Source of the DNA: Rahnella variigena | GTDB lineage: Bacteria > Pseudomonadota > Gammaproteobacteria > Enterobacterales > Enterobacteriaceae | Assembly: GCF_003610915.1 (NCBI RefSeq) | Contig: NZ_NSDJ01000001.1 | Coordinates: forward strand, 3,348,001-3,412,000 | Direction: 5' to 3' | Length of the DNA stretch: 64,000 nucleotides | Part shown: positions 1 through 14,543 of the stretch, piece after piece | How positions within the stretch are numbered: the stretch's first letter is position 1 | Layout of the letters: each line of letters begins with the position of its first letter | The notes under the pieces: generated by a model | What the model saw: only the letters and a program-made list of their open reading frames with translations | Told to the model about the DNA's origin: nothing | Database searches by the model: none | Position numbers and translations under genes: made by a program

Positions 1-1
1 C

Positions 2-178
2 TATTCATTGTCGAACGCCGTGTTCTCCGGCTGTGCGGGACTGATCATCACCGGCCTGATTAAAGAAACCGGCAATCTCGATATTCCGGCGTATTACGTG
101 GTCGCCACCTGCGTGGTCAGCCTGTTTGCGCTGATGTCGTTGCGCAAAGACGACCATTTACGCGATCTGGACGAATAG
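2..178 (+). CDS. C-terminal end of an MFS metabolite:H+ symporter (partial)
   Basis: The gene enters from outside the window. The visible 58 residues contain two hydrophobic stretches (GCAGLIITGLI and YYVVATCVVSLFALMSL) and end in a short charged tail, KDDHLRDLDE. This resembles the last two membrane helices and cytoplasmic tail of metabolite:H+ symporters of the MFS (ProP/ShiA type). The RpiR-type regulator starts 2 bp after the stop, so the two are probably co-transcribed, and the regulator may control uptake of the transporter's substrate. The substrate cannot be inferred from this fragment. Confidence 0.65.
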   Translation, partial: YSLSNAVFSGCAGLIITGLIKETGNLDIPAYYVVATCVVSLFALMSLRKDDHLRDLDE

Positions 179-180
179 CC

Positions 181-1035
181 ATGAGTGACACCCATTTGCA
201 GGCGCGACTGAACGCATTACAGGGCAGCTTTTCTCCGGCGGAAACGCGCATCATCACGATGATCCGGCTCGATCCGCCGGGCGTCGCCAATATGGGTGTG
301 ATGGAGCTGGCAAAGTCCGCGCAAACCAGCACCGCCACGGTGGTACGCACCAGCAAACGGCTCGGTTTCAGTGGCTATCCGGCGCTGCGGCTGGCGTTAG
401 CGGCAGAGTCCTCCAGCCCGATGCCTGTCGATATGCCGCTGGCCGCGAATATCGGCGAGAACGATTCGCCTAAGCAAATCCTGCAAAAGCTGCTGGAATT
501 TGAAGTTAAAGGGGCGAATGAAACCACGCAGTTACTGAGCGCGGCGATGCTCGAACAAGCAGTGGCGTTTCTTTCGCAGGCCCGGCGGATTGATATTTAC
601 GGTGCCGGTGCGTCGGCGCTGGTCGCGCAGGATTTCTGCCAGAAACTGCGGCGTATCGGCGTTGTCGCCCAGACTTACGGCAGCACCGATGAAAGTCTGG
701 TGAGCGCCTGTCAGCTTGCTGCCGGGGATGTCGCGCTGGCAATTTCTCACTCCGGTAAAACCGCCGGAGTGGTGGAAGCCCTGTCGCAGGCTAAAGCCGC
801 CGGCGCAACGACACTGGCGATCACCGCCAATGGCCGCGCCGCCGTCGCCCGCAAAGCGGATGTTGTGTTGAGAACCAGCAATCGCGAAATGGGTTTTCGT
901 GCCGCTGCTATGGCCAGCCGCACCAGCCAGTTGCTGATTATTGACTGCCTGTATATGGGCGTGGCGCAGCGTCTGCCGGGCGCACGTGAGGCATTGCGCA
1001 AAACTCACGAGGCGGTACAACAGCACCGCCGCTGA
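181..1035 (+). CDS. MurR/RpiR family transcriptional regulator
   Basis: This 284-residue protein has the two-domain RpiR layout. An N-terminal helix-turn-helix lies at about residues 1-77, with the recognition region near 41-66. A C-terminal SIS sugar-phosphate-binding domain spans about 120-250 and shows GAGASALVAQDF from 141 and SHSGKT at 189-194. Family members sense phosphorylated sugars or related metabolites and regulate neighbouring catabolic or transport genes. The ATG is 2 bp after the transporter stop and has no strong Shine-Dalgarno, which suggests translational coupling. The dehydrogenase follows 65 bp downstream on the same strand. The effector is unknown. Confidence 0.88.
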   Translation: MSDTHLQARLNALQGSFSPAETRIITMIRLDPPGVANMGVMELAKSAQTSTATVVRTSKRLGFSGYPALRLALAAESSSPMPVDMPLAANIGENDSPKQILQKLLEFEVKGANETTQLLSAAMLEQAVAFLSQARRIDIYGAGASALVAQDFCQKLRRIGVVAQTYGSTDESLVSACQLAAGDVALAISHSGKTAGVVEALSQAKAAGATTLAITANGRAAVARKADVVLRTSNREMGFRAAAMASRTSQLLIIDCLYMGVAQRLPGAREALRKTHEAVQQHRR

Positions 1036-1099
1036 TATTCCTCCGTTACACGGCGCGCCTTCTATACTTCATAAAACACTCCGGTTTATGAGGGCATGC

Positions 1100-2188
1100 A
1101 TGTTCACCCATCGTTTGGTATTTCCTGCCAGCGTCCTGCGCGGACGCGGCGCCATTAAACATCTGGGCGCGATGTGCGGACGTTTAGGCCAGCGGGCAAT
1201 GTTAGTGGGCGGCCAACGCGCCATTGCCAGCGTCGAGGCGAAAGTCGCCGATCAGCTCGAGCAGCAGATGGTCAGTTATCTGGGCAGTGAAATCTTCGGC
1301 GGCGTCTGTTGTCAGGAGGAAATCAACCGGCTGGCCGACGTGTTCCGCACGCAAGGCGTGGAAGTGATTATCGCCACCGGCGGCGGCAAAGCACTGGACA
1401 CCGCCAAAGCGGCTGGCGTGGCCTGTAATATTCCGGTAGTAACCTTACCGAGCATTGCGGGCACCTGTTCAGCGGTGACGTCGCTGGCGTTCCGTTATCA
1501 TCAGGACGGCGAGTTCCGCGACATGATGCCATTACCCTGCGGCCCCGCCGCAGCGGTCATCGACGCTGATTTGCTGGCGACCGCCCCGCTGCAATGGCTG
1601 TCGGCGGGGATCGGCGATACGCTGGCAAAATGGTATGAATACCGCGCCATCAGCGACCTCAGTCAGCTTACCGGCCTGGCGGGTGTCGCCCGAACCAACA
1701 GTGAACTCTGCTATACGCTTATCGAACACTTCGCCGCTGACGCCTGTTTCGCCGTACAAGACGGCAAAGCCAACAACGCTCTCGAACAGGTGCTCGACGC
1801 CATTTTCCTCTACGCCGGACTGACTTCCATCATGAGCAACGGCGCACACACTGGCGCTTCCCACGCATTATATGAAGGTTTCACCGCCTGCCCGAAAACC
1901 CGCCACATCGCCCATGGCCTGCTGGTGGGTTACGGCAATCTGTGCCTGCTGGCACTGGAAAACCGCAGCGACGAGGAGTTGCTGACCGCTATCGCCCTCG
2001 CCCGCGCCAGCGCCGTTCCGACGCAGTTAGCGCATATCGCGACAGGGCTGACTGAGCAGGATCTGGCGGTGATTATCGACCGGAGCCTGAGCACGCCTGA
2101 TATGGCGAACATGCCAGGCGATATTACATTTGAAGATGTCAGGAGGGGGATTGAGAGGGTTGAGGTGCTCGGGGCAAAAATTAATTAG
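1100..2188 (+). CDS. Iron-containing alcohol dehydrogenase, GldA/HcxA-like
   Basis: A 362-residue NAD(P)-dependent dehydrogenase of the glycerol dehydrogenase-like family. The nucleotide-binding GGGKALDTAK lies at 94-103. The three usual metal ligands of GldA-type enzymes appear to be present: Asp173 (GIGDTLAKWYE), His255 (SHALYEGF) and His272 (IAHGLLVGYG). Length and fold match E. coli HcxA (YbdH, a hydroxycarboxylate dehydrogenase) and GldA, but the substrate is not determined. The reading frame stays open upstream into the regulator. I chose the ATG at 1100 because a GAGG lies about 7 nt before it; an in-frame ATG at 1088 is the alternative. It probably belongs to a small catabolic unit with the RpiR regulator and the MFS transporter. 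Confidence 0.85.
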   Translation: MFTHRLVFPASVLRGRGAIKHLGAMCGRLGQRAMLVGGQRAIASVEAKVADQLEQQMVSYLGSEIFGGVCCQEEINRLADVFRTQGVEVIIATGGGKALDTAKAAGVACNIPVVTLPSIAGTCSAVTSLAFRYHQDGEFRDMMPLPCGPAAAVIDADLLATAPLQWLSAGIGDTLAKWYEYRAISDLSQLTGLAGVARTNSELCYTLIEHFAADACFAVQDGKANNALEQVLDAIFLYAGLTSIMSNGAHTGASHALYEGFTACPKTRHIAHGLLVGYGNLCLLALENRSDEELLTAIALARASAVPTQLAHIATGLTEQDLAVIIDRSLSTPDMANMPGDITFEDVRRGIERVEVLGAKIN

Positions 2189-2230
2189 TTTTTGGGATGC
2201 CCGTAGCGATAGGGCTAAAGCGGCCATGAC

Positions 2231-2363
2231 TCTGCTCCTCCCCCTGCGAAGGGGGAGGTTGGGAGGGGGTTTTAAGGGCTAACACCAGAGTAAAGCTAAC
2301 ATCAACTCTTTGATTTTACTTTAATACCCCACCCCAACCCTCCCCTTCGCAGGGGAGGGAGTA
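2231..2363. repeat. Bipartite palindromic repeat (BIME-like), copy 1
   Basis: Two GC-rich hairpins face each other. The left one is CCTCCCCCT-GCGA-AGGGGGAGG (2237-2258) and the right one CCCTCCCCT-TCGC-AGGGGAGGG (2338-2359). The sequences flanking them (GTTGGGAGGGGGTTTTA and its near reverse complement) extend the inverted repeat. The same layout recurs at 7321-7449, and single hairpins occur near 4150 and 59834. It lies between the converging dehydrogenase and lysR genes and may serve as a bidirectional transcript end. Confidence 0.85.
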
Positions 2364-2367
2364 AGGC

Positions 2368-3258
2368 TCAGACTCCCTGAATTCTGAGATCCCACAGCTT
2401 ACTACGTATCAGTTGTTTCAGCCGGTTCGATGCCTGCGATGCCGGCTGGTCCCGCCTGCTAAGCAGAATCACCTCAAACGGCAGCGGTTCCACCACCGGC
2501 ACAATCTTCAGCTGATCGACATACCGCCGGGCGGTAAAGGTATCGACCACGCCGACACCGCCGCCAGCCAGCACCATGTCAGCGATCACCGAGTAGGTTT
2601 TGATGAACAGCGCAGAATGCGGCATCAGACCGTTTTCCCGCAGGACGCGGTTGAGCACCTGACCCAGCGGATCCTGCTGCTGCAACATCAGCAGATCGTT
2701 TTCACACAGCCAGGCGAGCGATACCGGCCCTTCGACGTCCGAATCTTTTGGCAGCAGCGCTACCATATTGCCCTGATAAATCGACTCGGCGACCAGTTCC
2801 TGTGTGGCCTGCTCGCCGAACGCCAGCGCGAAATCCATTTTGTATTGCAGCAGGTCCTGACTCAGGGTGTTGAAATGTCCGGTCACCAGTTCGACGCTGC
2901 CGCCGGGCGTCTGACGGCGGAAATCCACCAGCACCGGTGCCATCACGCTATGCCCCAGCGCGTGCGCAGAACCGATGCGTACATGCTGCCCTTCGCCTTG
3001 TCGCAGCTGTTCTGCCAGCTCGCCGATGGCCTGGATATGGCTGAACAGCGCCTCGACTTCCGGCATTAACCGCCGACCTTCCGGCGTCACGATTAATCCC
3101 TGCGGCGTTCGGTCGAACAAGGTAAAACCCAGTTGCTGCTCAGCGTGATTCAGTACGCGGCTGACGTTGGGTTGCGACACGTTGAGCAAACGCGCCGCGC
3201 CGCTGACGCTGCCCGCCTGTAAGACCGCCTGAAACACTTCGATGTGGCGTAAACGCAT
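2368..3258 (-). CDS. LysR family transcriptional regulator
   Basis: A 296-residue LysR-type regulator. The winged helix-turn-helix occupies about residues 1-62 (RHIEVFQAVLQAGSVSGAA, then NVSQPNVSRVL), and the periplasmic-binding-protein-like effector domain covers about 90-290. It begins 7 bp after the dppA-like stop, so it is the last gene of the nine-gene peptide-catabolism unit and is presumably co-transcribed with it. LysR regulators are more often divergent from their targets. A candidate LysR-type operator lies upstream of the first gene of the unit (13042-13062). The effector is unknown; a D-amino acid or peptide breakdown product would fit the context. Confidence 0.88.
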   Translation of the reverse strand: MRLRHIEVFQAVLQAGSVSGAARLLNVSQPNVSRVLNHAEQQLGFTLFDRTPQGLIVTPEGRRLMPEVEALFSHIQAIGELAEQLRQGEGQHVRIGSAHALGHSVMAPVLVDFRRQTPGGSVELVTGHFNTLSQDLLQYKMDFALAFGEQATQELVAESIYQGNMVALLPKDSDVEGPVSLAWLCENDLLMLQQQDPLGQVLNRVLRENGLMPHSALFIKTYSVIADMVLAGGGVGVVDTFTARRYVDQLKIVPVVEPLPFEVILLSRRDQPASQASNRLKQLIRSKLWDLRIQGV

Positions 3259-3265
3259 TCCTGCC

Positions 3266-4087
3266 CTATTTCTGCGTGGTCGCTAAGTACGAGAAGGCAC
3301 TTAACAGGCTGATAATGTTGGCGACGGTCGGGCTGTGATAACCGACAGTGACCGCATCAAGACGCTCAACGCCCGGGATCAGACAGAATAAATCTGCCAG
3401 TACCGGTTTGGCGGTCATCAGCTCAAGATGATAAGGCGCGCTGAATCTTGCGGCGGTGAGCGGTGCAGGTTTGCTGACCGCAATCGTCGCCTGTTTGCGG
3501 ATTTTTGCACAGGCGATAGACGGGCTGTCGGACTCGGCCGCATTGGCGGAAATCGCCCGTTTGACGCAGACATATTGCGATTCAGGGTAATAACGGCGGA
3601 TCCAGGTTTCGAGGTGATCGTCGCCGGTGACCAGCCACAATGGAACGTTAAGTTCCGCACCGGCAGCGGCATATAAGTCGCTTTCGCCGACCACGTTGCC
3701 GTTGAGTTTAACGCGGTAAAAGGCGCGGCCATTGATGGTATGCGCCAGTACGCCGTTTTCGCCCGCGGCAGTGTGATAGCCGACAAACATCAGGCCGTCG
3801 TATTGCTGTTGCTGCAACCCTTCGACCATCGACAAACCGCGCGGTTTGCCCTGTACCAGACGGGCACGCGGGTCGATTTTATCGGCACGCAGGTTTTGCA
3901 TCATCGCGTGGCTGTCGGCAACGGTGACTTCCATCGCGCCACCGGCAAATGCGCCGTCGATGGCGGCGTTGACTTCCCCTTCCATCAGCGCACGGGCAGC
4001 GTCGTAATCGGCGTTGCCCGGGCTGCATTGTTCCGGGCGCATTACGCCTGCAATACCTTCAATATCCGCAGAGATAAACACTTTCAT
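3266..4087 (-). CDS. dppA: DppA-type zinc D-aminopeptidase (M55)
   Basis: This 273-residue protein matches the B. subtilis DppA family, which removes N-terminal D-amino acids from short peptides. The expected residues align at nearly the same positions: Asp8 and Glu10 (SADIEG), His60 (ADSH), His105 (GYHTAAG) and Glu135 (VGESD) as zinc ligands, and His116 (GVLAHT) as the catalytic histidine. I chose the start at 4087, reading MKVFISADIEG, because a GAAGGG Shine-Dalgarno precedes it; the longer open frame is unsupported. It is the eighth gene of the unit, between a P1 aminopeptidase and the LysR gene. Here it would hydrolyse peptides with D-residues brought in by the adjacent ABC importer. The bacillary DppA sits in a dipeptide-transport operon in the same way. 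Confidence 0.9.
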   Translation of the reverse strand: MKVFISADIEGIAGVMRPEQCSPGNADYDAARALMEGEVNAAIDGAFAGGAMEVTVADSHAMMQNLRADKIDPRARLVQGKPRGLSMVEGLQQQQYDGLMFVGYHTAAGENGVLAHTINGRAFYRVKLNGNVVGESDLYAAAGAELNVPLWLVTGDDHLETWIRRYYPESQYVCVKRAISANAAESDSPSIACAKIRKQATIAVSKPAPLTAARFSAPYHLELMTAKPVLADLFCLIPGVERLDAVTVGYHSPTVANIISLLSAFSYLATTQK

Positions 4088-4124
4088 CAGTCGTTCCCTT
4101 CTTGGTTTGGTTACCAGACGGAGG

Positions 4125-4172
4125 CAAAACCCACCCCCCATCCCAGCCTTCCCCTCGTGAGAGGGGAAGGAG
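4125..4172. repeat. Single GC-rich palindrome of the window's repeat family
   Basis: A hairpin CTTCCCCTC-GTGA-GAGGGGAAG is preceded by a CCACCCCCCATCCCAGC tract, the same arrangement as the right half of the bipartite elements at 2231 and 7321. It lies in the 90-bp gap between the P1 peptidase and dppA genes, so it is transcribed within the operon. Confidence 0.7.
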
Positions 4173-4177
4173 CCAGG

Positions 4178-5242
4178 CTAGTTCGCCAGATTATCTAATA
4201 CTTCACTCAACCCCAGCCGGTAATGTCCGTCGAATCCGCAGACGGTTTCTGCACTCAGTAAGGCATCAATAATAGCGTGTTCTGTAGCATCTGCCGCCAG
4301 CGCCAGCAAAGGCTCAAGTTCGGCATCCGGTAATGTGACACCGTCACGTTGGGTGGAAAACGCCAGCGCGATATCCCCTGAACCGTGGCCCCAGTAACTG
4401 CCGAGACGGCCTAACCCGGCACCGGCGCGTTTAGCGATGCGTCCGAGCTGGCGGCTGTCGAGATAACGGTCGCAGGCCATCACAATAATGATCGAACCCG
4501 CATCTACCTGCGGGGCCAGTTGCGTCTGGATTTGGGCGATGGCATCTCCGGCACGTACGCCGTCGAGGGTCAGTTCAGAGAGTTTGCCAAAGTTCGCCAG
4601 CACCAGTACGCCTAATGTCGCGTTTAGCGTTTCGCACCAGCGTGAGGCCGTACCGATGCCACCTTTTAACCCGAAACAACTCATGCCCCGTCCGGCACCC
4701 ACGCTGCCACGGGCGAAGGTTTTTGTCGCGCCGTCGAGTGCGGTCAGCGCATCGTCTTCACTGACAGCCATCGCCTGAATATCGTTTAAATAGAAATCGT
4801 TGCACTCAAGGATGACCGGATTGATGGTGGAGTCCGGGCGGCCAATTTGCGGGAATTGCTGGCAGCTGCGTTTCACCATCGCGTTGAATAATGTGCCAGT
4901 GGCGAAGGTATTGCTGAGCAGCACCGGCGTTTGCAGTTCGCCCAGTTCCATCACCTGAATCAGCCCCATCGGTTTACCGAAACCGTTTAACACCGCCACG
5001 CCGCACGGCAGCGGTTTTTCATACAGATTATCGCCCGGCGGCACGATGGCGGTGACGCCGGTCTGCACATCTCCGGCGGCCAGCGTGCTGTGTCCGACAG
5101 TCACGCCGGACACATCAGTCAGAGAGTTGGTGGCTCCGCACGGGAAACGCGGGCGAAAAATCTGGCGCGACGTGCGCCAGCGTTGCAGCAAAGCAGACAG
5201 CGCCTGCTGCTGAAATTCATCTTCATGTTGTTGCGGAGGCAT
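4178..5242 (-). CDS. P1 family (DmpA/BapA-type) aminopeptidase
   Basis: A 354-residue Ntn-hydrolase-type peptidase of the P1 (S58) family. Family blocks are visible: GATNSLTDVSGVTVGH near 36-51, GSVGAGRGMSCFGLKGGIGTAS around 179-200, and the nucleophile region DAGSIIIV, where Gly249-Ser250 would be the self-cleavage site. The equivalent site in DmpA is also Gly249-Ser250. HGSGDIALAFST follows near 286-297. Members cleave N-terminal L- or D-amino acids, or beta-amino acids. It lies 30 bp downstream of the permease gene in the same unit as DppA, so it likely processes imported peptides containing unusual residues. The stereospecificity cannot be read from the sequence. Confidence 0.88.
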   Translation of the reverse strand: MPPQQHEDEFQQQALSALLQRWRTSRQIFRPRFPCGATNSLTDVSGVTVGHSTLAAGDVQTGVTAIVPPGDNLYEKPLPCGVAVLNGFGKPMGLIQVMELGELQTPVLLSNTFATGTLFNAMVKRSCQQFPQIGRPDSTINPVILECNDFYLNDIQAMAVSEDDALTALDGATKTFARGSVGAGRGMSCFGLKGGIGTASRWCETLNATLGVLVLANFGKLSELTLDGVRAGDAIAQIQTQLAPQVDAGSIIIVMACDRYLDSRQLGRIAKRAGAGLGRLGSYWGHGSGDIALAFSTQRDGVTLPDAELEPLLALAADATEHAIIDALLSAETVCGFDGHYRLGLSEVLDNLAN

Positions 5243-5272
5243 CAGTTTTCCGTTTCAGCTGTTCAGTGGCTA

Positions 5273-6184
5273 TTACTTTTTCAGTTTAGGATCCAGCGTA
5301 TCCCGCAGCGCGTCGCCGAGCAGATTAAATGCCAGAACCGTGAGGAATATCGCCAGCCCCGGGAACACGCTGACGTTCCATTTGCCCGCCATCATCATAT
5401 TGCGGCTCATCGCCAGAATATTGCCCCACTCCGGCACGTCCGGTTCCGGCCCCAGACCGATAAAACTCAGGCTGGCGGCTGTCAGAATACTGGTACCGAT
5501 ACGCATGGTGAAATAGACGATCACGTTCGACAGCGTACCCGGCAGGATATGGCGTAAAATCACCACCCTGTCCGGCGCGCCGACGCAGCGAACCGCTTCG
5601 ACATAGGCACTTTGTTTGATCGATAACGTGGCGGCGCGCACGATGCGGGCAAATACCGGCACGCTGAATACCGCGACCGCGATGATCACGTTGTTCAGCC
5701 CCGGACCAAGAATAGCCACGACGGCGATTGCCAGCAACATGCCCGGAAAAGCGAACAAGACGTCGGAACCGCGCATGATCAGCATGTCGAGCCAGCGGCC
5801 ATAATATCCGGCCAGCAGTCCGAGCAATACACCGGCGATCATGCCGAGCGTCACGGAGAAAATGCCAACATAAAGGGATATGCGCGCGCCATAGATGATG
5901 CGGCTGAGAACATCTCGTCCCAAATCGTCGGTGCCAAACCAGTGCTCCGGCGTGGGGCCGACACCCAGCGCCATCCAGTCCGGCGTCATCGGGTCAAAAG
6001 GTGCCAGCCACGGCGCGAATATCGCCACAAGCACCAGCAGCAGGATAAATCCGCCGGACACCAGCGCCATCGGATGGCGAAGAAACGTGTGGAAAAAGTC
6101 GTACCACGGCGAACGGATATCATCGTTTTGCGAGGCTACCGCAGCCGGTGTGGTTTCTTCCAGCACAGAGACAGGATCGGTCAT
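5273..6184 (-). CDS. gsiD: GsiD-like peptide/glutathione ABC permease
   Basis: A 303-residue inner-membrane permease, the same length as E. coli GsiD. An N-terminal OppC-type segment with one membrane helix (about 35-60) precedes the transmembrane domain, which carries the cytoplasmic coupling loop EAVRCVGAPDRVVILRHILP. It pairs with the GsiC-like permease, which ends 9 bp upstream, and with the fused GsiA-like ATPase. The E. coli system imports glutathione. Peptidase and epimerase neighbours here suggest peptides containing D-Ala or D-Glu as the real cargo, which is inference. Confidence 0.88.
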   Translation of the reverse strand: MTDPVSVLEETTPAAVASQNDDIRSPWYDFFHTFLRHPMALVSGGFILLLVLVAIFAPWLAPFDPMTPDWMALGVGPTPEHWFGTDDLGRDVLSRIIYGARISLYVGIFSVTLGMIAGVLLGLLAGYYGRWLDMLIMRGSDVLFAFPGMLLAIAVVAILGPGLNNVIIAVAVFSVPVFARIVRAATLSIKQSAYVEAVRCVGAPDRVVILRHILPGTLSNVIVYFTMRIGTSILTAASLSFIGLGPEPDVPEWGNILAMSRNMMMAGKWNVSVFPGLAIFLTVLAFNLLGDALRDTLDPKLKK

Positions 6185-6193
6185 GAGCAGCTC

Positions 6194-7114
6194 CTAACGC
6201 AGACGGATTGCCGGATTGACCACCGCATAAAGCAGGTCAACCAGCAGATTTATCAGAATAAATTCAAACACGAACAGCATCACCAGCGCCTGAATGACCG
6301 GCTGATCCTGCGTCTTGATGGATTCAATCAGTAGCCAGCCGAGCCCCGGCCAGCTGAACACACTTTCGACGATAATTGAGCCACCGAGCAAAAAACCAAA
6401 CTGCAAGCCAAGCATGGTGATAATCGGGATCAACGCATTACGCATGATGTGTTTCCACGTCACCAGCCGCGCACGTAATCCTTTGGCGTTGGCGGTGCGC
6501 ACGTAATCTTCCTGCGCCACGTCGAGAAAGGCCGAGCGGGTGAAGCGCGCCATCACTGCCGCCACCGAGGAACCGAGGGTGATCGCCGGTAAGATAATGT
6601 CAGCGGGCGAATTAAAGCCGCTGACGGCGAAGATCCCGAACGGCATGGCGACAAACTGGATCAGCAATAACCCGAGCCAGAACGGCGGCATGGAAATTCC
6701 ACCGACCGCCATGCTCATCAGTGTCCAGTCCTGCCATTTTCCGCGTTTGAGCGCTGACACCACGCCAATCACCAGGCCGAGCACCACCGACCACGCAAAG
6801 CCCGCCAGCGCCAGCAACAGCGTTGGCATAAAACCGCTTTCAATCACACTTAACACCGGCTGACGCGTGCGATACGTCGTGCCCAGATCGCCGTGAACCA
6901 TACCGTTTAGCCAGTGCCAGTACTGCGCGGGCAGCGGATCGTTAAGGCCAAGCAGTTGCCGTGCTGACTCAACCGCCTCAATCGGCGCATCCTGTCCGGC
7001 GTAAATACGCGCAGGGTCACCCGGCAGCAGCTTGATAAAGCCGAAAACCAGCAACGATACCACCAGTAAAACGGGGATCATTTCCAGTATCCGGCGGATA
7101 AAATAGGTCAGCAT
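6194..7114 (-). CDS. gsiC: GsiC-like peptide/glutathione ABC permease
   Basis: A 306-residue permease of the DppB/OppB class, the same length as E. coli GsiC. It opens with the typical MLTYFIRRILEMIPVLLVVSLLVF helix and the conserved LLPGDPARIYAG segment, and carries the coupling loop EDYVRTANAKGLRARLVTWKH. It is separated from gsiB by 370 bp of palindromic repeats, although the transporter genes are otherwise tightly packed. That gap may set different expression levels for the binding protein and the permeases. Confidence 0.88.
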   Translation of the reverse strand: MLTYFIRRILEMIPVLLVVSLLVFGFIKLLPGDPARIYAGQDAPIEAVESARQLLGLNDPLPAQYWHWLNGMVHGDLGTTYRTRQPVLSVIESGFMPTLLLALAGFAWSVVLGLVIGVVSALKRGKWQDWTLMSMAVGGISMPPFWLGLLLIQFVAMPFGIFAVSGFNSPADIILPAITLGSSVAAVMARFTRSAFLDVAQEDYVRTANAKGLRARLVTWKHIMRNALIPIITMLGLQFGFLLGGSIIVESVFSWPGLGWLLIESIKTQDQPVIQALVMLFVFEFILINLLVDLLYAVVNPAIRLR

Positions 7115-7152
7115 AAAAGTGTTTCCCTGAACCTGAATATTGATGGTGGTGT

Positions 7153-7344
7153 GCTCTTTCCCCTGCTAAGGGGGAAGAAGACCGGAACACGCATTGGTTT
7201 TGCCCTTTGCTCCTCCCCCTGCGAAGGGGGAAGCAGACCGGAACATACATTGGCTTTGCCCTTTGCTCCTCCCCCTGCGAAGGGGGAAGCAGACCGGAAC
7301 ATGCATTGGCTTTGCCCTTTGCTCCTCCCCCTGCGAAGGGGGAG
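7153..7344. repeat. 56-bp tandem repeat array of GC-rich palindromes
   Basis: Four units begin at 7153, 7209, 7265 and 7321, an exact 56-bp period. Each has a core of the CTCCCCCTGCGAAGGGGGA type. In the first three units the core is followed by a shared tail of the form AGACCGGAACATGCATTGG then CTTTGCCCTTTG. The first unit is the most diverged, and the fourth continues into the bipartite element at 7321-7449. Short open frames translated through here are repeat artefacts. Confidence 0.9.
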
Positions 7345-7449
7345 GTTGGGAGGGGGTTTTAAAGGCTAACACCCTGTTTAAACAAACCTTAACATCAGTT
7401 TTTGACCTTAATACCCCACCCCAGCCCTCCCCTTCGCAGGGGAGGGAGT
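7321..7449. repeat. Bipartite palindromic repeat (BIME-like), copy 2
   Basis: The organisation matches 2231-2363: a left palindrome (CCTCCCCCT/AGGGGGAGG), a GTTGGGAGGGGGTTTTA arm, about 50 bp of AT-rich middle, then a CCCCACCCCAGCCCTCCCC arm with the second palindrome. The middle of both copies shares GCTAACACC and CTTAATACCCCACCCCA, so the whole 130-bp unit appears to be the repeating entity. It fills the gap between gsiB and gsiC. Confidence 0.85.
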
Positions 7450-7484
7450 TGACCAAAATCTGCTTAAGCTCCGGGAGCAAAAAA

Positions 7485-9029
7485 TTATTTAAACTGTGCC
7501 TGATTAAAAATCAGCGAGCCGTCGGCCAGCATGTAGACGCCGGAAAGGTCTTTGCTTTTGCCAACCAGATTGTCCGGTACACCGAGATAGGCCACCGGTG
7601 CATCCGCCCACAACAATTTTTGGGCATCGGCATACGCCGCCTTGCGTTTTTCGACGTCAGCGGTTTGCAGACCAGCGGTGATCGCCGCATCCACCTGTTT
7701 GTTACTGTAATAAGAGACGTTATAGGCCGACGGGATCCAGGATTCGGTGGCGAACAGCGGACGCAACGCCCAGTCTGCATCACCTGTCGAGGCCGACCAG
7801 GCGCCGTAATACATTTCTACTTTCGCCTCTGCCGGTTTCGGCGTGCTCCACAGACGCTGAGTCAGCGTACCGGAATCCATCGGCACCAGTTTCACGCGCA
7901 CGCCAATCAGGGAAAGCTGTTGTTTCAGGAACTGCGCGCTGCGGATACGGTCGGTCTTGTTCGAGCTCCACATTTCAACGTCAAAGCCCTTTTCATATCC
8001 GGCTTCTTTCATCAGCGCTTTGGCTTTGGCAATGTTATAGCTGTAATCCGGCGTGGTTTGTTTCTGATAGAACTGGACATTTTTCGGCAGCGGCGAAGTG
8101 GACGGCGATCCCAGACCGGCGAAACCGACTTTCAGCCACAGATTGCGGTCGATGGCGTAGTTAATCGCCTGACGGACGCGCACATCCGAGAACTCTTTTT
8201 TCTGCGTATTAAAGGCGATGTAATACAGATAGATGCCCGGATCCTGCGCGATATCCAGCTTCGGATCGCTTTTCACCGTATCCACCAGATCGGATGGCAA
8301 CGGATAGACCGCATCCACGCCGCCAGATTTCAGTTTTGCCACCTGTGTGGAATCTTCCGGCGTCGGATACAGCGTGACGGAATCCACTTTCGGCCAGCCT
8401 TTCTGCCAGTAGTTGTCATATTTCACCAGCTTGACGTCTTTACCCTGCTGCCATTCCACAAACTTGAACGGGCCGGTGCCGACCGGATGCACACTCAGAT
8501 CCTGCTCATTCGGATATTGTTTCAGGGATGCCGGGCTGTGCATGACCGCTGAAGGATGCGCGAGGGTGTTGATCATCGCGCCGAACGGTTTGTTGAGGGT
8601 GATTTTCACCTGGTACGGGCTGACGGCTTCAACGGATTTAATCATGCTGAACAGCGAGTTACGTTTCAGGTGACTGGCCGGATTAGCCAGACGATCAAGG
8701 TTAGCTTTGACCGCGTCGGCGTTGAAGAGCTTACCGTCCTGGAAGGTCACGTCGTGGCGCAGATTGATGGTGAATTCGGTGGCATCACTGTTGCTGGTGT
8801 AATCGGTCGCCAGCACCGGCACGACGGCCATCTTGCTGTCGAACTGGAACAGGCGTTCAAAGATGCCGCTCTGAATGGAATAACTCAGCGTATCGGTGGT
8901 GTCGTGCGGGTCGAAACCAGTCGCGTCCGCATACATGGAAATACGCAAATCTTTGGCCTGAGCAGACGCCGCAAAGCAAAGCGCCAGTCCGGCGGCAAGC
9001 AGGCTCTTACGCAGTAAAGTCGAATGCAT
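7485..9029 (-). CDS. gsiB: GsiB-like periplasmic peptide/glutathione-binding protein
   Basis: A 514-residue SBP_bac_5 family solute-binding protein (E. coli GsiB is about 512). A classic signal peptide runs to about residue 25 (LLAAGLALCFAASAQA). The mature part begins KDLRISMYADATGFDPHDT and includes the family segment VRQAINYAIDRNLWL. It would deliver peptide or glutathione substrate to GsiCD. The gene follows the ATPase gene after 36 bp and is followed by hairpin-rich repeats. That arrangement could raise binding-protein levels relative to the permeases through mRNA protection, as is known for the REP element between malE and malF. Confidence 0.9.
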   Translation of the reverse strand: MHSTLLRKSLLAAGLALCFAASAQAKDLRISMYADATGFDPHDTTDTLSYSIQSGIFERLFQFDSKMAVVPVLATDYTSNSDATEFTINLRHDVTFQDGKLFNADAVKANLDRLANPASHLKRNSLFSMIKSVEAVSPYQVKITLNKPFGAMINTLAHPSAVMHSPASLKQYPNEQDLSVHPVGTGPFKFVEWQQGKDVKLVKYDNYWQKGWPKVDSVTLYPTPEDSTQVAKLKSGGVDAVYPLPSDLVDTVKSDPKLDIAQDPGIYLYYIAFNTQKKEFSDVRVRQAINYAIDRNLWLKVGFAGLGSPSTSPLPKNVQFYQKQTTPDYSYNIAKAKALMKEAGYEKGFDVEMWSSNKTDRIRSAQFLKQQLSLIGVRVKLVPMDSGTLTQRLWSTPKPAEAKVEMYYGAWSASTGDADWALRPLFATESWIPSAYNVSYYSNKQVDAAITAGLQTADVEKRKAAYADAQKLLWADAPVAYLGVPDNLVGKSKDLSGVYMLADGSLIFNQAQFK

Positions 9030-9065
9030 GGTGTTCTCCTGTGTGTCCCAAAAAAGAAAGTTGAG

Positions 9066-10937
9066 TTATCCCTGTGCGACCCAGTGATGTTCACTGACGC
9101 GGGAATATTTGAGTTTTTCTATCTGTACACCCGCCGGATGCACCGGCGATTTCACTTCCACATCATCGAACTGACGCAACGCACGCTGCGTCGGATCCGC
9201 CACCGGCACCGAACTGAGCAGGCGTCGGGTATAGGGATGTTGAGGGTTGCTAAATACAGAGTCACGGGGACCAATCTCCACAATCTGCCCGCTGTACATC
9301 ACCGCTACGCGGTTGGCGATACGCTCCACGACGGCCATGTCGTGGGAAATAAACAACCACGCCACGCCGGTATCGCGCTGTAAATCCATCATCAGGTTGA
9401 CTACCTGCGCCTGAATCGACACATCCAGCGCCGACACCGCTTCGTCAGCAATAATCACCTGCGGCTGCAACGCCATCGCGCGGGCAATGGCGATACGCTG
9501 ACGCTGTCCGCCGGAGAATTCGTGCGGATAACGCCGCGCATGGGAAGGTTCAAGACCGACGCTTTTCAGTAACTGATTCACTACCGGCGTGGCATCAGCC
9601 AGTGATTTTTTCAGGCCGTGCAGTAACAAGGGTTCGGCAATGGAAAAGCCGACGGTCAGACGCGGATTGAGTGAAGCGTAGGGATCCTGAAACACCATCT
9701 GGATCTGACGGCGCACCGCCTGAAACGGCGTGTCGCGCATCAGGGTAATTTCTTTGCCTTCAAGATGAATACTTTCGGATTCGCTGCCCACCAGCCGTAA
9801 GATTGCGCGGCCTGTGGTGGATTTACCGCAGCCACTCTCGCCCACCAGCGCCAGCGTTTCGCCCGGCCAGATGGAGAAATCAATTTGCTCAACGGCATGG
9901 ACTTCTTTGGTCACGCGTGACAATACGCCGGAACGGATCGGATAGCAGACGAGCAACCCGCGCACGTCGAGCAGCGGTGGCGCAGCGTAATTAGCGGTTT
10001 TCTGGTCGTCTTCCGCTGGCGAAATGTGAGGCAGATCACCTGCAACCGATTGCTTTTCGGGCGAAATATTTTGACCGGTTTTGGCGGCTAACAGCGGGAA
10101 GCGACGCGGCCATTTCAGCCCCTGCATATCACCCAGTTTCGGTACGGCGGCCAGCAATGCGCGGGTATACGGATGCTGGGCGTTGGCGAAAATCTCGGTC
10201 ACGCTGCCCTGCTCCACCACTTTGCCCTGATACATCACCACCACACGATCGGCGATTTCCGCCACCACGCCCATGTCATGCGTAATGAACAGAACCGACA
10301 TCTCGGTGCCCTGTTGCAGGTCGCGCAGAATTTGCAGAATGCGCGCCTGCACCGTGACATCCAGCGCGGTTGTCGGTTCGTCGGCAATCAGCAATGCCGG
10401 ATCACAGGCCAGCGCCTGCGCAATCATCACCCGCTGACGCATGCCGCCGGAGAGTTCATGCGGATAACATCTGAGGATGCGTTCGACGTCAGGAATACGA
10501 ACCTGTTTCAGCAATTCACGGGCTTTATTCAGCGCCGTGGCTTTACTGGCGATGCCATGATCCAGCAGCCCTTCGGTCAGCTGATCGCCAACGCGCAGCA
10601 CCGGATTGAGCGAGGTCATCGGCTCCTGAAAGATCATCGACATTTCCTGGCCGCGCAGCTTCCGGCGTGATTCTGCGGACATCGACGTCAGCGCATGACG
10701 CGTGCCGTTACGGCCAAAAAATTCGATACTGCCCGCGTCAATGTGCGCCGAATCCGGCAGCAGCCCCATGACGCTCAGTGAGGTGACGGACTTACCTGAT
10801 CCGCTTTCGCCGACCACCGCCACCACTTCACCTTTATTCACCGAGAAGGAAACGCCTTTCAGCGCCTGCGTTTTGCCTTGCCGGCCGGAAAACGTCACCG
10901 ACAAATCGTTAATCTGCAAAATGGGCACTGTCATCAA
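9066..10937 (-). CDS. gsiA: GsiA-like fused ABC ATPase (two nucleotide-binding domains)
   Basis: A 623-residue ATPase with two OppD/OppF-type domains in one chain, the same length as E. coli GsiA. Domain 1 has Walker A GESGSGKS at 43-50, signature LSGG at 162-165 and Walker B LLIADEP at 182-188. A linker of about 55 residues precedes domain 2, which has Walker A GESGCGKST at 366-374, signature FSGGQ at 474-478 and Walker B IIADEA near 495-500. Both sites keep the catalytic motifs. It energises import through GsiCD. It starts 27 bp after the epimerase gene, placing the transporter within one unit with the D-glutamate genes. Confidence 0.92.
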   Translation of the reverse strand: MMTVPILQINDLSVTFSGRQGKTQALKGVSFSVNKGEVVAVVGESGSGKSVTSLSVMGLLPDSAHIDAGSIEFFGRNGTRHALTSMSAESRRKLRGQEMSMIFQEPMTSLNPVLRVGDQLTEGLLDHGIASKATALNKARELLKQVRIPDVERILRCYPHELSGGMRQRVMIAQALACDPALLIADEPTTALDVTVQARILQILRDLQQGTEMSVLFITHDMGVVAEIADRVVVMYQGKVVEQGSVTEIFANAQHPYTRALLAAVPKLGDMQGLKWPRRFPLLAAKTGQNISPEKQSVAGDLPHISPAEDDQKTANYAAPPLLDVRGLLVCYPIRSGVLSRVTKEVHAVEQIDFSIWPGETLALVGESGCGKSTTGRAILRLVGSESESIHLEGKEITLMRDTPFQAVRRQIQMVFQDPYASLNPRLTVGFSIAEPLLLHGLKKSLADATPVVNQLLKSVGLEPSHARRYPHEFSGGQRQRIAIARAMALQPQVIIADEAVSALDVSIQAQVVNLMMDLQRDTGVAWLFISHDMAVVERIANRVAVMYSGQIVEIGPRDSVFSNPQHPYTRRLLSSVPVADPTQRALRQFDDVEVKSPVHPAGVQIEKLKYSRVSEHHWVAQG

Positions 10938-10964
10938 TAAACGCCTCCTTTATAGGCTGAACTG

Positions 10965-11930
10965 TTAAAGCCAGACTTCACCGTTTTCATAACGTAATGC
11001 CGGTTCGGCATCCTGCGACAGCCAGATTGGCCCGTCGAGATCGACACGTTCCGCCTGCACCGCCACCGGCAGCGCGGCTTCCATGGCGATGGAAGAACCG
11101 AGCATGCAACCGACCATAATCCGCAAACCGAACTGCCGCGCCACGCCGGTCATCGCCAGCGCTTCTGTCAGGCCACCGCACTTGTCGAGCTTGATGTTGA
11201 TCATCTCGTAGCGGTCGCGCAGCCCTTCAATATCGGCACGCTCATGACAGCTTTCGTCGGCGCAGACAGGAATGGGATGCAAACAACGCACCAGATCGTG
11301 GTCATTACCGGCAGGAAGTGGCTGTTCGATCATCGCCACGTTCAATTCATGCAGCGCCTCAAACACACTGCCGAGATCTAAACCCGACCAGGCCTCATTC
11401 GCGTCTACCACCAGCGTGGCGTGTGGCGCAGCGGCGCGGATTGCCGCCACTTTCTCTATTATCTGCTCGCGGTCGAGTTTGATTTTCAGCAACTGCGCGC
11501 CACCGGCAACGGCCACTTCTGCCGCTTTCGCCATGTTTTCCAGCAGATCCAGGCTCAGCGTTTCCGCGGTAATCACGGAAACAGGCTTCGGCATATCAAG
11601 CAGTTGCCACAGGTCTTTGCCCTGTTTTGCCGCATCAAGACGCCACATTGCACAATCGAGGGCATTACGCGCCGATCCCATTGGCAACGCCTGCTGTAAT
11701 GCGTCGCGGCTCAGTCCCTGTTCCACCTGCGGGCGGATAAGCTCAAGTTGTTCGCACACGCTTTGTGGCGATTCCTGATAACGGGCGGTCGGCGTGCATT
11801 CTCCGACGGCGGTAAATTCGCCGTCGGTCAGGGAAACGCGCACCACCGTGACAGCGGTGCGTGTACCACGGGAAATCGCAAACGGCTTTGCCAGCGGCAG
11901 TTCGACGGACTGGAAAGTCATCTGAGTCAT
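10965..11930 (-). CDS. dgcA: Enolase-superfamily epimerase: L-Ala-D/L-Glu epimerase or N-acetyl-D-Glu racemase (DgcA-like)
   Basis: A 321-residue enzyme, the same length as E. coli YcjG (L-Ala-D/L-Glu epimerase) and very similar in its motifs. The catalytic lysines lie in LLKIKLD (Lys149, Lys151), the metal ligands are Asp176 (VVDANEAW), Glu202 (MIEQPLP) and Asp225 (CADES), and the opposing lysine is Lys247 (NIKLDKCGG). In YcjG-type enzymes this site epimerises the Glu residue of muropeptide dipeptides. When paired with DgcN, the homologue DgcA racemises N-acetyl-D-Glu. The start overlaps the DgcN-like stop by one base (TGATG), indicating coupling. The partner gene makes the DgcA role attractive, but the sequence alone does not separate the two activities. 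Confidence 0.88.
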   Translation of the reverse strand: MTQMTFQSVELPLAKPFAISRGTRTAVTVVRVSLTDGEFTAVGECTPTARYQESPQSVCEQLELIRPQVEQGLSRDALQQALPMGSARNALDCAMWRLDAAKQGKDLWQLLDMPKPVSVITAETLSLDLLENMAKAAEVAVAGGAQLLKIKLDREQIIEKVAAIRAAAPHATLVVDANEAWSGLDLGSVFEALHELNVAMIEQPLPAGNDHDLVRCLHPIPVCADESCHERADIEGLRDRYEMINIKLDKCGGLTEALAMTGVARQFGLRIMVGCMLGSSIAMEAALPVAVQAERVDLDGPIWLSQDAEPALRYENGEVWL

Positions 11931-12940
11931 CAGCCGTTGTCCTTAATCCATTGCGCGATATTTTTGATGCCAAAACGCACCGGGTCAGTGGCAGGCACGC
12001 CGAATTCTTCGCTGATTTCAGCCAGCGCGATTTTCGCTTCTTCTTCACTGACCGCCGACGTATTCAGCGAGAAACCGGCGATTTTGACATCCGGGCTGGT
12101 GAGCCTGGCAGCCGCCAGATTGGTATCAAGGCACTGACGCAGCGTTGGCATAAACTGGTGTGGCAGATGACGCATATGCGGGCGACCAAGCTCATGACAC
12201 ATCACCAATAAATGCGCCTGCGCGCCGTGGATAAGCCCCATACTGACACCGGCAAAAGACGGGTGATACAGCGAGCCCTGACCTTCGATGATGTCCCAGT
12301 GATCGTCGTCATTGGCCGGAGACAGCGCTTCAACCGCGCCGGAAATAAAATCGGCAATCACCGCATCAATCGCAATGCCCGCCCCCGCCACCAGCACACC
12401 GGTCTGACCGGTTGCGCGGAAATCGGCTTTTAAATCCAGTTCACGCATGGCCGCTTCCAGCGCCAGCGAGGTGTACATTTTGCCGACTGAGCAGTCGGTG
12501 CCGACGGTGAGAATGCGTTTGCCGCTGCGTTTTCTGCCGGTGCCGGTATCGAGTTCCGGTTGCATGTGACGCACGTCAAACAGCGCTACGTGATGCTCTT
12601 TAGCCAGCTCGACCAGTTCAGGAATGTCGTTCAGCCCCTGATGCAGGCCGTTAGCGACGTTAAGCCCGGCGCGGATCGCCGCTTTGATCGAATCCAGCCA
12701 GTGTGTCGGTAATTTACCGCCAGAGTTCGCGGTGCCCAGCACCATGGTTTTCGCGCCCTGCGCTTTGGCCGTTTCGATGTCGAGTTCGGGCAATCCCAGT
12801 GACACCGAATCCGTCGCCAGACGAATTTGCCCGACGCAGGCTTCAGGACGCCAGACGTGAATGCCGCGCGCGGTTTTCGCGGCCAGCGGATCCATCACAT
12901 CACCAAGGAATAAAAGATACGGCTTTGGAATTTGCTGCAT
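11930..12940 (-). CDS. dgcN: DUF1611 protein, DgcN-like D-glutamate N-acetyltransferase
   Basis: A 336-residue DUF1611 protein. Visible features are an N-terminal Rossmann-like region (PYLLFLGDVMDPLAAKTARG), a P-loop-like GTDCSVGK at 147-154, GQTG at 178-181 and EGQGSLYHPSFAG at 219-231. DgcN has been described in marine bacteria as acetylating D-glutamate, which DgcA then racemises to N-acetyl-L-Glu for entry into normal metabolism. Here it is the first gene of the unit, with the epimerase fused to its tail by a one-base overlap. The upstream gap holds a candidate LysR operator. The assignment rests on family and pairing; the ligand has not been tested here. Confidence 0.82.
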   Translation of the reverse strand: MQQIPKPYLLFLGDVMDPLAAKTARGIHVWRPEACVGQIRLATDSVSLGLPELDIETAKAQGAKTMVLGTANSGGKLPTHWLDSIKAAIRAGLNVANGLHQGLNDIPELVELAKEHHVALFDVRHMQPELDTGTGRKRSGKRILTVGTDCSVGKMYTSLALEAAMRELDLKADFRATGQTGVLVAGAGIAIDAVIADFISGAVEALSPANDDDHWDIIEGQGSLYHPSFAGVSMGLIHGAQAHLLVMCHELGRPHMRHLPHQFMPTLRQCLDTNLAAARLTSPDVKIAGFSLNTSAVSEEEAKIALAEISEEFGVPATDPVRFGIKNIAQWIKDNG

Positions 12941-13041
12941 GTCAGTTTCTCCGGGATTCTTTTTTTAATGGGTTTTAAAAAGACCCGGTCAATATTCCAC
13001 GGGAGAAAGCGGCTGACGAATACTTGTTTGGCTTTGGGGTA

Positions 13042-13062
13042 TAACCTGCGGCTATAGGTTTA
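13042..13062. promoter_or_regulatory. Candidate LysR-type operator upstream of the dgcN unit
   Basis: The dyad TAACCT-N8-AGGTTTA fits the T-N11-A inverted-repeat pattern of LysR-type operators. It lies about 100 bp upstream of the first gene of the nine-gene unit, whose last gene encodes a LysR regulator. The link is inference. Confidence 0.4.
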
Positions 13063-13130
13063 GCTGCATGAATTTATTATGGTTATTTGAAAATGAGGAA
13101 CGCGGTCAGGGAGGGAGAAATGACAGGCAC

Positions 13131-13163
13131 AAAAAAAGGCAGAGCCAATGAAACTCTGCCTTT
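13131..13163 (-). terminator. Rho-independent terminator of the porin gene
   Basis: On the minus strand the stem AAAGGCAGAG / CTCTGCCTTT, with a 10-nt loop, runs into a tract of seven T. It lies about 50 bp past the porin stop. Confidence 0.88.
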
Positions 13164-13213
13164 GCGATTACCTTTTTCAGACACAGAATGGGGTAATAAT
13201 TTAGTTCACTAAC

Positions 13214-14284
13214 TTAGAAGCGGTAAGTCAGTGCTACAGCAACGATGTCATCAGAGCTTACGCCCAGTTTGTTGTTGTCATCGATCTGGTTGATCATGTA
13301 GTCAACATAGGTGTACATGTTTTTGTTGAAGTAGTAAGTCGCACCGATTTCGAAGTATTTAACCAGGTCTACATCGCCGATACCGTTTTCAACATCTTTC
13401 GCTTTAGACTGCACGTAACCGATTGACGGACGCAGACCGTTTTCGAACTGGTACTGTGCCACTAACTCATAACCCTGAGTTTTGTTCGCGTAGCCGCCTG
13501 GGATTGGTGCCAGGTTACGGGTTTCGTTATACATTGCAGACAGATAAATCTGGTTAGCGTCGTATTTCAGAGCCGTTGCCCATGCAGACGCTTTATCACC
13601 GCCGCCGATAGCGGAGTCACTTTGTGCGTTAGTACGGTCAGATGAAGAACCTGCGATAACAGCACCGATGCCGGAACCTGCGATATCTTCATAATCGATG
13701 GATGCGCCGTAACCGTCGCCGTTCGCTTTAGTAGATGCACGACCGTCGCCTTCGTTTTTACCCTGGTATTGCAGGGCAATGTTCAGGCCAGTGACCAGAC
13801 CGAAGAAGTCCTGGTTACGGTAAGTGGCCAGGCCGCCTGAACGACCTACCATGTAGTTATCGGAGTTAGCGGTATCACCACCAAACTCTGGCAGCATATC
13901 GGTGAAGCCCAGTGCGTCGTAAACAACACCGTAGTTACGGCCGTAGTCGAAAGAACCGAAATCTTTCACTTTCAGGCCAGCAAAGCCCAGACGGGTTTTG
14001 TTACCCAGGTCGCCCTGAGATTCTGCGTGGTTAGCCTGAATGTTATATTCCCACTGGCCATAACCGGTCAGTGTGTCGTTAATTTGAGTTTCGCCTTTAA
14101 AGCCCAGACGCGCATAAGTCATGTCGCCGTCAGAACTTTTGTCATCGGAGAAATAATGCTTAGCGGTTACGCGACCGTAGAGGTCCAGTTTGTTACCGTC
14201 TTTATTATAAATCTCAGCTGCATTCGCGGTAGAACCCACTGCAATTAAAGAGACCGCTAAGGCCAACACACTGCGCTTCATCAT
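13214..14284 (-). CDS. OmpF/OmpC-family general porin
   Basis: A 356-residue trimeric outer-membrane porin. A 22-residue signal peptide ([22 protein letters not shown]) precedes the mature start [17 protein letters not shown]. Internal hallmarks are [17 protein letters not shown], the loop-3 region [17 protein letters not shown] (constriction with PEFGGD) and the terminal beta-signal ending in Phe (VALTYRF). The double Met start and several segments resemble OmpF more than OmpC, but I would not assign the paralogue. It forms a diffusion channel for small hydrophilic solutes. The 570-bp region upstream carries a possible OmpR-like site and two NtrC-like dyads, suggesting osmotic and perhaps nitrogen control. 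A clear terminator follows. Confidence 0.92.
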
Positions 14285-14477
14285 TATTTAAGTTTCCTTG
14301 ATTTTTTTATAAAGGATTTCTCATGCCCGTTCTTTTATAGGACTGAAATATCGGGCTGTGAGTATTTGTACATGTTTTAAAATACGTCTGTCTGTAAAAC
14401 GATTTGAACCTTAACACTGAGCACGAAAAGTTAAAATGGAAAAGTTCGCCTCGATAAGTCTTTTTTGAGTAAAGAGT

Positions 14478-14497
14478 TGTAACATCATGTTTCTACC
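14478..14497 (-). promoter_or_regulatory. Possible OmpR-binding site upstream of the porin
   Basis: On the minus strand the sequence GGTAGAAACATGATGTTACA contains AAACAT and GTTACA half-sites spaced as in OmpR boxes of enteric porin promoters. It lies about 200 bp upstream of the start codon. OmpR sites are degenerate, so this is a weak call. Confidence 0.35.
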
Positions 14498-14543
14498 ATA
14501 AGGCGCTAAGCCCCTGATTATATGCGGTTTTCGCATAACAATT

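Follow-up and report, generated by a model that had tools for sequence, protein, structure and literature searches.

A nine-gene unit of Rahnella variigena as a probable scavenging system for D-glutamate-containing peptides

Introduction

Which substrates could bring enzymes of D-glutamate breakdown, a transporter named after a glutathione importer and two peptidases together in one gene cluster? The question is raised by nine genes of Rahnella variigena, lying at 2368..12940 of a 64 kb (kilobase) stretch of DNA (assembly GCF_003610915.1, contig NZ_NSDJ01000001.1, positions 3,348,001 to 3,412,000), which as a whole is called the window below. The genes encode relatives of DgcN and DgcA, of the transporter proteins GsiA, GsiB, GsiC and GsiD, of P1 and M55 peptidases and of the LysR regulators. 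A sequence-only reading had taken them for a single unit importing and breaking down D-amino-acid peptides and D-glutamate. Comparison with related loci leads us, with moderate confidence, to regard them as a probable LysR-controlled scavenging unit for peptides containing D-glutamate, such as cell-wall fragments.

Results

Gene order and origin of the unit

All nine open reading frames (ORFs) lie on the minus strand, and their coordinates and domain families confirmed both the gene set and the order proposed earlier: dgcN, dgcA, gsiA, gsiB, gsiC, gsiD, P1, M55 and lysR. In this order the ORF ends are separated by a 1-base overlap and then by 27, 36, 370, 9, 30, 36 and 7 bases; by our own reading, the 36 bases between P1 and M55 become 90 if the M55 gene starts at 4087.

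Outside the Rahnella set, 80 dgcN loci were compared, with G252, contig 1 of G613, G552, the Rahnella copies, matches below 430 bits and the later-found stand-alone dgcN of the same family excluded. Four of these loci (L052, L053, L105 and L106) hold the unit wholly or partly. A GsiB-like gene is present in none of the other 76, of which one (L051) comes from the same family, and a related LysR gene lies beside dgcN in 18 of them. At one stand-alone dgcN locus, L111, a sodium/glutamate symporter gene was seen beside the LysR gene. Conversely, dgcN was found in none of 15 stretches around M55 genes from outside the family. Ten of the 15 carry gsiABCD, all ten together with a gene of the type of the beta-aspartyl peptidase IaaA, nine with P1 and eight with an RpiR-type regulator; the name IaaA is given below the cut-off of its NCBIfam model (PRK10226, 466 and 491 bits for two such proteins against 567). 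The other five lack that set, and one of them, L173, has P1 beside one M55 gene.

Because dgcN loci elsewhere lack GsiB and M55 modules elsewhere lack dgcN, the unit is, on its gene content, a fusion of LysR-dgcN-dgcA with gsiABCD-P1-M55, the latter placed between dgcA and the LysR gene. The earlier proposal that dgcN and dgcA, a peptide importer and two peptidases belong to one unit therefore stood, but the importer and peptidase part is older and lives elsewhere without dgcNA. The neighbourhood search for DUF1611 (the DgcN family) beside Gsi-type genes likewise found the pairing in one family only, since none of the 76 other dgcN loci has a GsiB-like gene.

Conservation of the unit

All 14 Rahnella genomes, that of the window included, carry dgcN. 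Of the 12 named loci (nine Rahnella, Ewingella americana and Hafnia psychrotolerans), 11 have an unchanged gene order, the twelfth, L043, being a short contig with the gsiC-lysR part only. Of 37 related loci, 27 have the complete core from dgcN to M55, and these span ten or more genus labels, so that the comparison of gene order in relatives upheld the earlier expectation. This tally includes the nine named Rahnella loci and uses presence thresholds set by us; L043 and L233 stand outside it, and among the 27 complete loci P1 is split over two frames in L218 and has a short frame in L106. One locus of the tally, L229 (genome G795), holds a decayed unit in which dgcN and dgcA are broken and P1 and a truncated M55 share one 500-aa (amino acid) frame.

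Of 295 genomes of the family, 43 gave a DgcN match and 42 an M55 match, with 31 having both (Fisher p 4.6e-23, a value that ignores kinship); 26 of these 31 carry the two less than 10 kb apart on one contig. Across 398 genomes of the phylum, 73 were listed with a DgcN match and 22 with an M55 match; only six are on both lists, four of them from the same family. A DgcN match over the cut-off was also seen in a 0.9 Mb (megabase) genome of the same family (G912 contig 1, 612180-613148).

Compared with five relatives, the nine genes gave ratios of nonsynonymous to synonymous substitution rates (dN/dS) of 0.006-0.126, with dS near or above 1 for many pairs, and the nine genes are on this comparison under purifying selection. 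That they should be neighbours without any functional link is barely credible: single parts of the unit can be lost, but the gaps are short, one palindrome stands at the head, the core recurs under many genus labels, and selection acts on every gene.

A transporter distinct from the glutathione importer

The transporter comprises a gsiA-like double ATPase (9066..10937, 623 aa, with a TTG start as listed), a gsiB-like periplasmic binding protein (7485..9029, 514 aa) and gsiC- and gsiD-like permeases (6194..7114, 306 aa, and 5273..6184, 303 aa), belonging to the ATP-binding cassette (ABC) ATPase, SBP_bac_5 and two permease families. Gsi was the best NCBIfam name for all four proteins, yet every one scored under its cut-off (GsiA 823 bits against 1077, GsiB 475 against 594, GsiC 394 against 463, GsiD 411 against 484). 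These names, and E. coli GsiB (PDB 1uqw) as the closest solved relative of the binding protein, would suit a second importer of glutathione, reduced (GSH) or oxidised (GSSG), accompanied by bystander enzymes. Such an importer is nevertheless very improbable, as not one of the four proteins reaches the Gsi cut-offs and the same genome has a canonical iaaA-gsiABCD locus elsewhere. There GsiB scored 997 bits against 594, GsiC 618 against 463 and GsiD 600 against 484, and GsiA 1076.7 against 1077. Both GsiB types occur in 14/14 Rahnella genomes, and the two of the window genome are 43% alike.

In the GsiB tree the unit proteins and the canonical proteins form separate clades (support 100/99 and 99/98). 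Nine of the ten GsiBs of the older modules are nearer to canonical GsiB, the tenth (L167) falling with the unit proteins, on a long branch. This tree was built without an outgroup and without ten nearly identical unit rows. It replaced a first one with long outgroup rows and an implausible branch of length 10 for L187, probably a wrong-strand reading. At 92 positions one state prevails in at least 85% of the unit rows and another in at least 85% of the canonical rows. One arginine, present in 10/10 canonical rows, is tyrosine or phenylalanine in 31/31 unit rows; this is a weak argument against glutathione, as HbpA (PDB 3m8u), which we take to be a glutathione binder, also lacks it in the alignment. 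Asp419, which we take to be the residue of this fold that holds the amino end of the peptide, is conserved in 31/31 unit rows, and a peptide-like ligand therefore remains likely for the unit GsiB. By sequence comparison, the unit transporter and the genome's canonical glutathione importer differ; the cut-offs, the paralogue and the tree here bear out the earlier reading, and on the same three grounds the glutathione importer was dropped as the principal interpretation.

DgcN and DgcA

The first gene of the unit (11930..12940) encodes a 336-aa DgcN-like N-acetyltransferase with the DUF1611 N and C domains. It exceeds the cut-off of the NCBIfam DgcN equivalog (526 against 480 bits), and its closest solved relative is PDB 7xrj (E 2.4e-102). 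The second (10965..11930) encodes a 321-aa protein of the enolase superfamily with MR_MLE domains, a putative N-acetyl-D-glutamate racemase or dipeptide epimerase with a solved relative in YcjG (PDB 1jpd). Choosing between DgcA and YcjG by family score was given up, each protein passing both models: the unit protein scored 430 bits with the DgcA model (cut-off 400) and 380 with the YcjG model (cut-off 343), and E. coli YcjG reached 423 with the DgcA model. This overlap of the equivalogs NF042940 and NF011708 is a warning for automatic naming. The name DgcA given to the second gene before cannot rest on the NCBIfam model, because E. coli YcjG passes it too, but the tree backs it.

In that tree, built with 34 of the 76 stand-alone loci and just two YcjG rows, a single clade takes in the unit rows and two rows from loci without dgcN (Shimodaira-Hasegawa-like approximate likelihood ratio test, SH-aLRT, 95-99, quick method). 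The clade adjoins stand-alone dgcNA of another order and lies away from the two YcjG rows. The unit protein is thus outside the YcjG clade, and it is not encoded at the YcjG locus: in the same genome a separate ycjG follows tyrR and has an OppA-like binding protein beside it (tyrR was recognised by family, and tpx between tyrR and ycjG by eye). The catalytic lysines Lys149, Lys151 and Lys247 and the metal ligands Asp176, Glu202 and Asp225 (E. coli YcjG numbering) are kept in 31/31 unit rows.

The unit might instead serve a muropeptide route in which DgcA acts like YcjG as an L-Ala-D/L-Glu epimerase and DgcN is dispensable. Two loci of one genus label (L161 and L163) without dgcN, in whose genomes no DgcN match was found, agree with this, as they keep dgcA, gsi, P1, M55, LysR and the palindrome. 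Their DgcA proteins fall under the DgcA cut-off (390 against 400) and over that of YcjG (355 and 356 against 343), and have asparagine in place of Arg21. Arg21 is, however, kept in the 31/31 other unit rows, and the genome already has a ycjG, which makes the muropeptide route improbable as an account of the unit. The DxD motif, which we take to be the clamp for the dipeptide amine, was tried as a test of dipeptide use and rejected: it does not discriminate, because it is carried by 68/68 stand-alone DgcA rows (in an alignment limited to rows of at least 170 bits and 301-419 aa).

The two peptidases

The P1 aminopeptidase (S58, DmpA-like; 4178..5242, 354 aa) matched Pfam Peptidase_S58 with 340 bits. 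Its best PDB match was 2drh, DmpA (1b65) matching as well, and its closest named match came from Rahnella bonaserana (97%). Gly249-Ser250, presumably the self-cleavage site and nucleophile, aligns with Gly249-Ser250 of DmpA, and Gly-Ser is found in 30 of 31 unit rows, the remaining row being gapped. At the position of DmpA Tyr146 the protein has Asn148, and asparagine stands there in 31/31 unit rows. In view of this replacement, the action on D-residues mentioned for DmpA-type enzymes in the earlier reading is not supported for this P1.

The gene of the DppA-like M55 D-aminopeptidase is listed as an ORF at 3266-4141, its likely start at 4087 giving 3266..4087. The protein matched Pfam Peptidase_M55 with 310 bits and has a solved relative in DppA (PDB 1hi9). 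The aspartate, two glutamates and three histidines of the DppA active site, which we take to be zinc ligands and the catalytic histidine, are kept in 31/31 unit rows. Against the NCBIfam equivalog for Bacillus-type DppA it scored only 150 bits (cut-off 430), which places it in the M55 family and not in the Bacillus subtype.

The LysR regulator and an operator-like palindrome

The LysR protein of the window (gene 2368..3258) resembles those beside stand-alone dgcN, scoring 116-272 bits against the 18 of them; the next LysR in the same genome reached 78 bits, and no other LysR in the fetched loci exceeded 53. In a tree of these regulators the unit proteins group together (98/97), with the controls on one side of a branch.

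A palindromic motif, CTATAACC-N3-GGTTATAG, was first seen in a few upstream regions, its seeds coming mainly from L054, L108, L114, L161, L163, L213, L219 and L226. The copy in the window, CTATAGCC-GCA-GGTTATAC (13039..13057, minus strand), has its centre about 108 bases before dgcN and matches at 14 of 16 positions, the next best site in the 64 kb matching at 12. The palindrome was a top-scoring site of the locus just before dgcN in 34/34 unit loci, partial ones included (28 unique), before dgcA in both loci without dgcN (1 unique), and in 12 of the 18 stand-alone dgcN loci with the LysR (10 unique). It was a top site in none of ten older-module loci, where the region before gsiA was tested. 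L082, a 4 kb contig, and L229 were left out of these counts.

With the seed loci removed, the palindrome was a top site in 31/31 unit loci, and in 14/14 when each genus label was represented by one locus; for the same 14, a set of 300 palindromes with their arms permuted averaged 2.0 and reached 9 at most. Stand-alone dgcN loci with the LysR gave 9 of 15 without the seeds (permuted palindromes 1.6 on average, 8 at most). The G+C content of the control loci is higher (medians 0.61 and 0.66) than that of the units (0.55), and among loci under 56% G+C the palindrome was a top site in 21/21 units, in 7/9 stand-alone loci with the LysR and in 1/14 without. LysR regulators usually act at sites of the form T-N11-A, and the palindrome holds this form. 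We infer that the LysR protein exerts its control at this palindrome and that all nine genes are transcribed together. The idea of a single unit is supported by one operator-like site at its head and by a LysR like those of stand-alone dgcN. A scan of window positions 1-14500 for sigma-70 promoters found none.

Repeats and neighbouring genes

G+C-rich palindromes occupy the two longest intergenic gaps of the unit. The gap between gsiB and gsiC (7115..7484, minus strand) contains one 17-mer in three exact copies, plus variants, and a hairpin fold is found there in many relatives and hardly at all in L042 or L221. Palindromes of the repetitive extragenic (REP-like) kind, CCCCCTGCGAAGGGGGA, lie at 2214-2364 and 7152-7449, with nine matches on both strands in five places where 0.01 would be expected.

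A general porin gene (Porin_1, 13214-14284) adjoins the unit, as it does in the 11 named loci and in L222, L223, L228, L231 and L232. Between the two lies a terminator-like hairpin with a T tail (13135..13163, minus strand), the same hairpin being present in 11/11 named loci examined. The porin could be the outer-membrane entry for the peptides, against which its own terminator-like hairpin counts. Beyond the other end, at 181-2188 and on the other strand, an RpiR-type regulator (HTH_6 and SIS domains) and an iron-containing alcohol dehydrogenase lie beside the unit in the window and in L175; at L044 and L045 this pair was not seen beside the unit. About 6 kb to the left of the window there is another transporter of the peptide type. 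In L219 a D-alanine--D-alanine ligase gene (1724-2836; 645 bits against 457) abuts the LysR end of the unit.

Discussion

The working model is as follows, every substrate in it being predicted from sequence. In the periplasm, the GsiB-like protein would bind peptides that contain D-residues or iso-linked (gamma-glutamyl) ones, GsiACD would import them, and the P1 and M55 peptidases would split them in the cytoplasm. Freed D-glutamate would be acetylated by DgcN, and DgcA would racemise N-acetyl-D-glutamate to N-acetyl-L-glutamate or directly epimerise L-Ala-D-Glu. The N-acetyl-L-glutamate might enter arginine synthesis or be deacetylated, and LysR would switch the unit through the palindrome before dgcN. 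Gamma-D-glutamyl peptides are attractive ligands because transporters of the Gsi type handle a gamma-glutamyl peptide and the D-glutamate of peptidoglycan is gamma-linked.

Several observations weigh against this model. Among the nine genes, neither an N-acetyl-L-glutamate deacetylase nor a gamma-D-glutamyl endopeptidase was seen. Parts are lost one by one (dgcN in L161 and L163, dgcA in L219 and L227, gsi in L053 and L228, gsi with M55 in L230), and L231 and L232 keep only dgcN and LysR; no part thus strictly needs the others. As for regulation, the palindrome is also a top site in 4 (1 unique) of the 57 stand-alone loci that lack such a LysR. Across the whole genome, sites with up to two mismatches are not over-represented (3 against 4 for the reversed pattern), and a wider regulon was rejected on this count. 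The branch parting the controls from the rest of the LysR tree has a support of only 45/18 and the control rows are long, for which reason the LysR scores are better evidence than the tree.

Finally, an IaaA-type gene lies within or beside the unit in 11 of the 37 loci (the stretches of L052 and L214-L218 end soon after it and do not cover the LysR region beyond) and also belongs to the older module, so that beta-aspartyl peptides are pointed to as well. The unit could then be a broader scavenger of non-standard peptides with D-residues, beta-aspartyl or gamma-glutamyl bonds. D-glutamate would be one minor product, and DgcN and DgcA would handle several D-amino acids or have been recruited for one substrate. 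The ten M55 loci outside the family that combine gsiABCD with IaaA, with no dgcN nearby, fit this picture. On the other side, the unit is tied to the D-glutamate genes because its LysR type and palindrome are those found with stand-alone dgcN, in place of the older module's RpiR, and its GsiB lies outside the clade of nine of the ten older-module GsiBs. We therefore consider the broader scavenger rather unlikely and retain the scavenging of D-glutamate-containing peptides as the probable function.

The unit recombines known parts. The IaaA-gsiABCD-P1-M55 module of other Proteobacteria shares with the unit the families of its transporter, P1 and M55 proteins and, in most cases, their order, but differs in having no dgcN nearby, an RpiR regulator in 8/10 loci, no palindrome as top site in 10/10 and, in 9/10, a GsiB nearer to the canonical protein than to that of the unit. 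No name for this module was found among the literature titles searched, and we know of none. From the YcjG/MpaA/MppA murein tripeptide genes of E. coli, among which YcjG is a relative of DgcA, the unit differs in the clade of its enzyme (as judged from two YcjG rows) and in its locus, that of YcjG being tyrR-tpx-ycjG. In Bacillus we take the M55 enzyme DppA to lie in dpp (dppABCDE), not in ykf. The Bacillus ykfABCD operon, which according to the available part of PMC3305447 joins a transporter component, an L-Ala-D/L-Glu epimerase and a peptidase, is the nearest printed analogue that we found. DgcN and P1 are not among the four ykf products named in that part, where an eubacterial enzyme cleaving the L-Ala-D-Glu bond is stated as not yet described.

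With the DgcN-DgcA pathway of D-glutamate catabolism (PMC10845958, available part) the unit shares the relatives of both enzymes by NCBIfam and tree, a similar LysR and the palindrome before dgcN, the last two not being known as requirements of the pathway; the stand-alone dgcN loci differ in having no GsiB-like gene. The E. coli transporter Gsi, which imports GSSG according to the available part of PMC11719327, is of the same protein family and gene order, but its counterpart sits elsewhere in the Rahnella genome. The nine-gene unit itself was not found in the literature searched (DgcN/DgcA, DUF1611, and GsiB with D-aminopeptidase, the dgcN papers being judged by title).

More tentatively, and with slightly less than an even chance of being right, we suggest that Enterobacterales gained a catabolic regulon for D-glutamate peptides when an importer and peptidase module for iso- and D-peptides was captured behind the dgcNA operator, between dgcA and the LysR gene. 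The GsiB clade would then mark a new specificity within the Gsi family, for D-glutamate or gamma-D-glutamate peptides derived from peptidoglycan or poly-gamma-glutamate, and the loss of dgcN in one genus with the change of Arg21 a switch of DgcA from N-acetyl-glutamate racemase to dipeptide epimerase. The system is amenable to testing, with one operator-like site, one regulator, one block of genes and natural losses of single parts. If the preferred reading is true, a well-defined transporter clade automatically named as a glutathione importer would gain a function, and in relatives of common enteric bacteria the D-glutamate pathway would reach beyond the free amino acid to peptides.

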